In this document: one piece after another, positions 18,663 to 20,866 of the stretch
How positions within the stretch are numbered: position 1 is the first letter of the stretch
Layout of the letters: each line of letters starts with the position of its first letter
From: Phycisphaerales bacterium
GTDB taxonomy: Bacteria > Planctomycetota > Phycisphaerae > Phycisphaerales > UBA1924
DNA: 64,000 nt
NCBI GenBank assembly: GCA_040221175.1
Contig: JAVJVK010000001.1
Location: forward strand, 434,001-498,000
Reading direction: 5' to 3'
Program-made: the position numbers and the translations under genes
Notes under the pieces: model-generated
What the model saw: only the letters and a program-made list of their open reading frames with translations
Told to the model about the DNA's origin: nothing
Database searches by the model: none

Positions 18663-19601
18663 TCAGTTGCCGCCCCGGTCGCGCTCGTCGGCGCGTCGGC
18701 GGTCGAGTTCGGCCTGCAGGTTGATGATGTGGGTTTGCAGTTCGGCGATGGTGCGTTGCAGTTCGAGCACGCGGTTGCGCATCTCGTCGGCTTCCTGGAT
18801 CCGCTTGACGAGTTCTCCGGTGTTCTTGACCCCGGTCATCTGGTAGATGTTCTCGACCTGGGACTTGGACTCGCCGCGCAGCCGAGCCTCCATCGAGCGG
18901 CGCAGGTTCACCAGCGTCTGCTCGATGACGCCGCCCTGATCGTGCGTGACGCGGGCGAAGACAAGGCCGGTCTCTTCGTGGTAGCGGATCTCGGCTTCTT
19001 CGGCGGCACCCGCGATAGAGAGGGCGGCTTGGATGGCGCTCAGCACGGCGTCGGCGGACATCGCACCGCCGCCGGTGGTGAGTTCGGTGATGGAATGCAC
19101 GGCGGTGATGCGGTCGGACTGGCCCACGAGCATCTGGCCCCTGGGCGTGGAGATGTACTGCGGCGAGTTGTCGAGCGTCACGGCGTAGACGCCGTCGCCG
19201 ACCGGGGCGATTTCCCACCGCACCGTGCGGCCGGCGCTGAGCGTCGTGGGGCTGCCCGCCGAGGTGTAGGCGAGGCTCTGCAGCGTCGATCGCAGTTCCG
19301 CGTCGGCGACCTCGAAGGGCGGGATGGGGATGTTGGCCGCCTCGGAGCTGTAGAGGATGTTGACCGGACGCTGGGGCGAGGCGGCCTTCAGGGCGTCGAC
19401 CAGATCGGCCAGCGTGCCGCCTTCGAAGTCGATGGTGATGAGGTGGGGCTGTTCGGCTGGCCGGGCGCCGCTCGACGCCTGGCTCCGCTGGGTCTGGGGT
19501 TGGGTCCGCTGAGTTTCGGATTGGGTTCGCTGAGCCAGCACCGGCTGGGCGTGCGCGGTGACGAGCAGGGCGGCGGCGGTCAAGGCTGCAATGCGTCGCA
19601 T
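18663..19601 (-). CDS. exported STN (secretin/TonB N-domain) protein with coiled-coil C-terminus
   Basis: The 312-aa protein has a signal peptide (MRRIAALTAAALLVTAHAQPVLAQ), a Gln/Thr-rich linker, an STN-type domain (HLITIDFEGGTLADLVDALKAAS... ADAELRSTLQSLAYT), a middle beta-rich part (SAGRTVRWEIAPVGDGVYAVTLDN) and a C-terminal coiled coil at about 265-305 (EADEMRNRVLELQRTIAELQTHIINLQAEL). It starts at ATG 19601 with GGAG upstream. STN domains carry signals or bind partners in secretins and TonB receptors. Here the domain is in a periplasmic protein encoded directly before a sigma factor, suggesting an envelope sensor. Confidence 0.75.
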   Translation of the reverse strand: MRRIAALTAAALLVTAHAQPVLAQRTQSETQRTQPQTQRSQASSGARPAEQPHLITIDFEGGTLADLVDALKAASPQRPVNILYSSEAANIPIPPFEVADAELRSTLQSLAYTSAGSPTTLSAGRTVRWEIAPVGDGVYAVTLDNSPQYISTPRGQMLVGQSDRITAVHSITELTTGGGAMSADAVLSAIQAALSIAGAAEEAEIRYHEETGLVFARVTHDQGGVIEQTLVNLRRSMEARLRGESKSQVENIYQMTGVKNTGELVKRIQEADEMRNRVLELQRTIAELQTHIINLQAELDRRRADERDRGGN

Positions 19602-19761
19602 GTCGTTCTCCTTCGGCTTCGGTTCGGGGCGTTTCTCTCTCCACATGGATGAACGGAGCCGACGCCCCCGCGCGGCGCGGGTGGAACAGATTTTTCCGCC
19701 CGGCCCGCTACCATCCCCCTTCCCCAGTCTCCGACACGTGATTATCGCAGGATGGACCACC

Positions 19762-20866
19762 ATGCACTTTGACGCCCACCAGCCGGTCATTGACGACCTC
19801 GAGGCGCGGATCTTGACAATCCGCGACTCTCTTTAACTACGACAGCAAGCACGAGAAGCTCACCGAGCTCGAAAACAAGATGGGCGAGGCGACGTTCTGG
19901 GATGATCCCGACACTGCCCAGAAGACCGTGGCGGAGTTGAAGGTCATCAAGGCCCAGATCGCCCCGCTCGACAAGGTCGTGGAAGCCTTCGAGGAGGCCC
20001 AGGTCGCCTACGAGATGGCCCGCGAGGGCGACGACAAGGACCTGCTGGCCGAAGCCGACCAGGCGCTGTACGAGCTCCAGGAGTCGATGGACAAGGTCGA
20101 GATGCAGAGCCTGCTCAGCGGCAAGCACGACCACCGGAATTGCTATTTCACCATCCACGCGGGCGACGGCGGCACCGAGGCCAACGACTGGGCCGAGATG
20201 CTCTTTCGCATGTACCTCTACTATTTCGAGAACATGGGCTTCAAGGTCGAGGAAGTCTCCAAGGGCTACGGCGTGGAGACCGGCATCGACCACATCACCC
20301 TGCACATCAAGGGGCCGTTCGCCTTTGGCTACCTGAACTGTGAGCGCGGCACGCACCGGCTGGCACGGGTGAGCCCCTTTAACGCCCAGGGCAAGCGGCA
20401 GACCAGCTTTGCCACCGTCGACGTCACGCCCGAGTTCGAGGACATGGACGTGCAGATTCCCGACAAGGACCTGGAGATCACGTTCTTCGCGCGGTCGAGT
20501 GGGCCGGGCGGGCAGAACGTCAACAAGGTCGCCAGCGCCTGCCGCGTGGTGCACAAGCCGACGGGGCTGATGTACGTCGCATCGAGCCATCGCGACCAGC
20601 CGCAGAACAAGGCCCAGGCGCTCACGCTGCTCCAGGCCAAGCTCGAGCAGATGGAAGAGGAGAAGCGCAACGCCGAGATCAAGGAGGCCGCCGGCGGCGA
20701 TCTGAATCGCGGTTGGGGCACGCAGATTCGCAGCTACGTGCTCTACGACAACCGCGTGAAGGATCACCGAACGAACGTCGAGGGCAACCCCACCGACGTG
20801 CTCAACGGCAAGATCGACAAGTTCATCGACGCCGAGCTGAAGCGGCGGCGGTCGCAGAAGAACTGA
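19762..20866 (+). CDS. prfB: peptide chain release factor 2, needs +1 programmed frameshift at UAA
   Basis: RF2 ends translation at UGA and UAA. The first 24 codons (from ATG 19762, MHFDAHQPVIDDLE...) end at an in-frame TAA (19834-19836) directly after CTT. Skipping one T and continuing at 19835 gives NYDSKHEKLTELE and the whole RF2 body, total 367 aa. The SPF stop-recognition motif (204-206) and GGQ (249-251) are in the expected places. The site reads CTTTAACTAC, identical in layout to the classic CTTTGACTAC but with UAA instead of UGA. The Shine-Dalgarno-like AGGGGG that normally lies upstream is absent. Confidence 0.93.
19831..19837 (+). promoter_or_regulatory. prfB frameshift site CTT TAA C
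   Basis: The slippery CTT (19831-19833) is followed by TAA C. A +1 shift moves the ribosome from CUU to the overlapping UUU and then reads AAC. The upstream bases GACAATCCGCGACTCT contain no AGGGGG or GGAGG spacer element. Confidence 0.85.

Follow-up and report, generated by a model that had tools for sequence, protein, structure and literature searches.

A conserved hairpin as the probable stimulator of prfB frameshifting at a UAA stop in a Phycisphaerales bacterium

Programmed +1 frameshifting has its standard example in prfB, the gene for release factor 2 (RF2). In E. coli, the Shine–Dalgarno (SD)-like element of the message pairs with the anti-SD, and this helix, lying by the E site, helps tRNA-Leu to slip from CUU to UUU as long as the stop codon is waiting. 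The prfB gene considered here lies in a window of 64,000 nucleotides (positions 434,001–498,000 of contig JAVJVK010000001.1, GenBank assembly GCA_040221175.1) from a Phycisphaerales bacterium. Its shift site departs from the usual one both in the stop codon and in the sequence upstream, which raises the question of what would stimulate the shift here and what release-factor control it would provide. A survey of more than 12,000 genomes found the prfB SD-like element and UGA to be almost universal (PMC12421855), and the internal SD is described as a major, highly conserved stimulator of prfB frameshifting in a review (PMC5009743).

The split prfB gene

The first-pass annotation of this DNA had described prfB as split by CTT TAA C after a leader of 24 codons, with correct SPF and GGQ motifs in the body. 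The ORF coordinates (19762–19837) bear out the split and both motifs are intact in the translation (Table 1). The two ORFs overlap, and the second, which holds the motifs, is assigned to prfB by the NCBIfam model TIGR00020 (399 bits; cut-off 370). CUU U is immediately followed by a stop that RF2 can read and then by C, an arrangement kept in relatives. The stop is TAA and not the RF2-specific UGA, and a hairpin occupies the place, about three nucleotides upstream of CUU, of the SD-like stimulator. We regard the site as a variant, since such a stimulator is typical of, and not strictly required for, the family.

Table 1. Features of the prfB shift region (positions in the window)
Feature	Positions	Strand	Basis or remark
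prfB leader ORF, 24 codons, ending CTT TAA	19762..19836	+	ORF reading; start ATG kept in 96% of relatives
Putative stimulator hairpin, 5' arm CGCGGAT	19805..19811	+	fold, pairing, covariation
Hairpin loop, 7 nt, CTTGACA	19812..19818	+	varies between relatives
Putative stimulator hairpin, 3' arm ATCCGCG	19819..19825	+	fold, pairing, covariation
Spacer of 5 nt, ACTCT, from stem to P-site codon	19826..19830	+	includes E-site codon TCT 19828-19830
Slippery site and premature stop, CTT TAA C	19831..19837	+	CTT 19831-19833, TAA 19834-19836, then C
RF2 body ORF in +1 frame, 343 codons + stop TGA 20864-20866	19835..20866	+	first codon AAC 19835
SPF, RF2 stop-codon recognition motif	20372..20380	+	body translation, intact
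GGQ catalytic motif	20507..20515	+	body translation, intact

The nearest upstream stop in the body frame is TGA at 19814–19816, and between it and the ATG at 19880 this frame contains no ATG, GTG or TTG; lacking a canonical start upstream of that ATG, it needs the shift to yield the full N-terminus of RF2. Production of RF2 without a frameshift, through internal initiation or with a leader that goes unused, is very unlikely. The ATG at 19880 does lie in the body frame, but a start there would drop the first part of the N-terminal domain, and conservation extends over both the slippery heptamer and the body codons ahead of 19880. Moreover, in the 15 Phycisphaerae genomes of the sample with a continuous prfB, the stop has been lost and the two frames join precisely where the shift used to take place. 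On the minus strand, the longest form of a divergent ORF (18663–19790) overlaps the start of prfB; the signal-peptide-like MRRIAALTAAALLVTAHA further inside it suggests that its true start is nearer 19600.

A hairpin in the place of the SD-like element

The annotation had further noted that an AGGGGG-like element is absent upstream of the shift site. This stands: the computed pairing of the stretch before CTT with the 16S tail amounts to about +0.4 kcal/mol, the Phycisphaerales median. Its reading that the stimulator is simply missing has to be given up, as a conserved, covarying hairpin lies in that place. Computed pairing is about −4 kcal/mol in other families of the class with CGGGAC in the 3' arm. 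For other classes of Planctomycetota that have the frameshift the values run from 0 to −7.4, most of them between −3 and −7, and the SD-like stretches are AGGGAC, AAGGTG and similar; the E. coli prfB site gives −10.6. An altered anti-SD in the 16S rRNA was considered as the cause of the SD absence and rejected, the 16S rRNA of the genome ending in the canonical CCTCCTT.

The hairpin (19805–19825) has a stem of 7 bp and a loop of 7 nt, and a spacer of 5 nt separates it from the slippery CTT. For the 41-nt stretch the folding energy is −14.6 kcal/mol (z −4.6), a value reached by none of 200 shuffles, and the aligned leaders of relatives share the almost invariant block GAGGCGCGGATYTTRACSATCCGCGACTCTCTTTRAC. 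In the fold the stem extends to 10 bp (GAG...CTC); the class does not conserve the outer pairs, and the 7-bp core alone is claimed. In the genome, a covariance model of the hairpin finds a single good match (E 4e-13), the next one having E 1.65, and a search of the curated Rfam families gave no match to the hairpin with E up to 1. What is found, in sum, is a stable and conserved helix that covaries and keeps a fixed distance 5' of the shift site, as would be expected of an upstream stimulator.

A stem of this kind may also come from the protein. CGN-ATH...ATH-CGN can form four pairs with itself irrespective of the third bases (CG.AT....AT.CG). The R-I-x-x-I-R that the leader encodes therefore accounts for four of the seven pairs, and the inverted repeat could be a by-product of this motif and of high G+C, with no functional RNA hairpin; R-I/V..I/M-R also partly persists in genomes without the frameshift. 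Such an origin is nevertheless quite unlikely, because the pairs left unfixed by the protein covary at synonymous positions, the stem codons are nearly fixed relative to background and the protein-independent pairs are lost along with the frameshift.

Three pairs are protein-independent: 11–31 (Ala2–Asp1), 12–30 (Ala3–Arg3) and 15–27 (Arg3–Ile3), the last two each joining third codon positions. Among the 111 protein-retrieved Phycisphaerales frameshift sites, a set free of the loci retrieved with the hairpin model, the first six stem pairs (11–31 to 16–26) are kept in all and the seventh in 109. At the 188 distinct frameshift sites of the class, which are in part drawn from a biased sample, the 57 class loci found through the hairpin model, pair 12–30 is formed in 184 (shuffled mean 113.5, maximum 131), as GC 127, CG 46, GU 8, UG 2 and AU 1. 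Pair 15–27 is formed in 183 (shuffled mean 170.9, maximum 176), as GC 168, AU 6, GU 6 and CG 3. At two sites (L035 and L281) the Ile codon has become one for Met or Leu, with a matching change in the Arg codon. When the partner is slid by 1–3 nt, pairing falls from 97.6% to 22–43%, and cells in which both sides have changed number at most 11 instead of 58, figures that likewise rest partly on these 57 loci. Independent contrasts on the RF2-body tree, again with some of the 57 included, are concordant in 2.9 of 3 and 3.6 of 5 and discordant in 0.0 and 0.2; with so few pairs they are underpowered on their own.

Codon usage was compared in 80 dereplicated genomes, nearly all Phycisphaerales, that were retrieved by protein without structure-based retrieval and hence without the 57 loci. 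The stem codons are near-fixed in comparison with the body of the gene: Ala GCG stands at 99% (29% in the body), Arg CGG at 100% (24%) and CGC at 95% (53%). The codons of the loop vary. The E-site codon TCT occurs in 80% of relatives as against 4% of the Ser codons of the body, and this weak E-site codon may help the shift. Within the loop, a Leu codon is TTG or TTA far more commonly than in the rest of the gene (TTG 82% versus 6%); this bias, seen in the window and in its counterparts L005–L064 and L167–L246, gives the loop a +1-frame TGA or TAA, which in the window is the TGA at 19814–19816.

The presence of the helix follows that of the frameshift. All three protein-independent pairs form in 181 of 188 frameshift genomes versus 1 of the 15 with a continuous prfB, a contrast to which the 57 hairpin-model loci contribute in part. 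Folding energy overlaps between the groups, with a frameshift median of about −14.5 kcal/mol in the order versus −5 to −16 for genomes without the frameshift. A second alternative is that the hairpin is real and serves some other role (mRNA stability, leader translation or protein binding), CUU and the stop sufficing for the shift. The review describes CUU U with a weak stop as slippery by itself (PMC5009743), yet we consider this alternative unlikely, given that the distance to CUU is fixed, that hairpin and frameshift are lost together in independent lineages and that the hairpin sits exactly where the SD does in other classes. The frameshift losses in Phycisphaerae are L019/L186, L188, L190, L192, L060, L061, L064, L274–L280 and L291; on the tree there are 8 changes between presence and absence of the prfB frameshift, some of which look recent, with hairpin remnants left.

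The hairpin is kept through much of the class Phycisphaerae: its model matches 221 of 397 class genomes and almost none elsewhere in the phylum. Some families of the class retain an SD-like GGGAC or AAGGAC with a weak or absent hairpin, and the hairpin is therefore not needed throughout the class. Outside the class, a shorter or imperfect stem precedes CTTTGAC in L105 (CCCGC...GCGGG), L103 and L106, which may be a relative of the hairpin or an independent case. On comparative sequence evidence, the hairpin is conserved and under selection at the RNA level, is tied to the presence of the frameshift and is reciprocal to SD strength.

The UAA stop and its readers

The annotation had allowed for a G/A miscall at the stop codon and had proposed that the leaders of relatives be compared, in case these all have UGA. 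They do not: all seven genomes belonging to the genus have TAA, as do most others in the family and the order, and this rules out a miscall. An RF2 gene was found in 60 of the 61 genomes of genus, family and order, and the 56 sites of this set with slippery CTTT have TAA (38) or TGA (18). Named relatives, mostly labelled Phycisphaerae or Phycisphaerales and nearly all metagenome assemblies, added 55 further distinct frameshift sites, 44 of them with TAA. Since many relatives are metagenome assemblies, an error of sequencing or assembly (A in place of G, or an indel) might be suspected; its probability is next to nil, as TAA is present in 85 of the 188 distinct frameshift sequences of the class, from unrelated assemblies.

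TAA thus predominates in Phycisphaerales (82 of the 111 protein-retrieved prfB frameshift sites) and is rare in the rest of the class, where TGA is predominant. It is a derived state, common in the order, and the RF2 tree shows about 21 TAA/TGA changes. TAA at the shift site also occurs outside Phycisphaerales in the same class, in L290 (family f18) and in L138 and L164 (family f11), so that it probably arose more than once. Across bacteria, UAA at the prfB shift site amounts to 1.4% and is not fixed in particular clades (PMC12421855), a pattern to which Phycisphaerales come close to being an exception.

The annotation had expected weaker or different feedback with UAA, a stop that RF1 also reads. 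Absence of RF1, which would make UAA specific to RF2, was considered and rejected: the genome has a prfA-like gene with a P-A-T motif, its score lying slightly under the curated cut-off. With RF1 present, UAA is in principle readable by either factor and the expectation is a logical one. RF2 has been argued to read most UAA in many taxa (PMC12421855), and the loop may respond to RF1 and RF2 together, RF1 also reading UAA. An estimate of stop usage from 48 long ORFs of the window gives TGA 28, TAG 12 and TAA 8. A coupling of UAA to the SD-less type of hairpin (83 of 136 GC-type sites versus 2 of 48 CG-type) was unsupported once the tree was considered. The hairpin is kept under both TAA and TGA, and the two stops interchange on the tree; the hairpin hence does not require UAA.

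Proposed mechanism and known systems

The prfB site of the window is very probably an autoregulatory +1 programmed frameshift at which, judging from sequence comparison, a natural 5' hairpin replaces the SD:anti-SD duplex as stimulator. From the position of the hairpin, its covariation, its linkage to the frameshift and the in vitro precedent we infer that it stimulates the shift, as well as the manner of action and the release-factor control in this bacterium. With the ribosome at CUU UAA C, the stretch of mRNA that has just cleared the E site would fold into the 7-bp hairpin, which would substitute for the SD:anti-SD duplex, strain or pull the mRNA and favour loss of the E-site tRNA. With the stop awaiting a release factor, the peptidyl-tRNA-Leu would then slip from CUU to UUU, and AAC would be the next codon. 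At high release-factor levels, termination at UAA would end the leader at 24 residues; at low levels, full-length RF2 would be made.

A plausible path leads from SD only, through an SD inside the 3' arm of the hairpin, to a G–C swap at pair 12–30, which would destroy the SD and keep the helix. The fuller scenario, in which the class exchanged the rRNA-based stimulator for the hairpin through a stage with both (a weak SD, GGGAC, in the 3' arm) and Phycisphaerales moved to UAA, sensing RF1 and RF2, is tentative, and we would give it slightly less than an even chance.

In vitro precedent comes from an artificial upstream hairpin at CUUUGA on 70S ribosomes, which gave about 60% of the SD effect, only without RF2, and stimulated more strongly with a more stable stem (PMC6321510). 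In the open-access literature we found no report of a natural hairpin stimulator at prfB. If true, the present case would be a first example from nature of a bacterial +1 frameshift that a 5' hairpin drives. The hairpin clade offers a natural test of how an upstream duplex acts, whether through the rRNA pairing itself or as any helix in the exit path, and the clade-wide UAA tests the need for RF2-specific stop reading in the feedback. Motif scans that demand AGGGGG or TGA will miss or mis-annotate prfB of the Phycisphaerales type.

Compared with the canonical E. coli-type prfB (PMC12421855, PMC5009743), the present site shares the gene, a shift about 24–26 codons in, CUU U, a stop followed by C, the +1 direction and an RF2 body after the shift. 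It differs in that the canonical site has AGGGGG three nucleotides before CUU, whereas a 7-bp hairpin stands five nucleotides before it here, and in that the canonical stop is UGA, whereas in Phycisphaerales it is mostly UAA. The artificial hairpins, built to refold upstream and to imitate an internal SD (PMC6321510; related work in PMC3639245), likewise lie just 5' of the shift site, but their stem is a synthetic, GC-rich one of 12 bp in a reporter, whereas the present 7-bp stem is natural and kept across much of a class. The natural 5' stem loops in the passages covered from the review (PMC5009743) are only those of T4 gene 60 bypassing and of some viral −1 sites. There, the stem loop of T4 gene 60 is described as forming on exit of the mRNA from the ribosome, with a presumed pull on the message; it belongs to another gene, in a phage, and serves translational bypassing, not a +1 shift. 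The same text describes a SARS coronavirus stem loop, 4 nt 5' of the −1 site, which is natural as well and stimulates +1 frameshifting in synthetic tests, but which in nature attenuates −1 frameshifting, in a eukaryotic virus.
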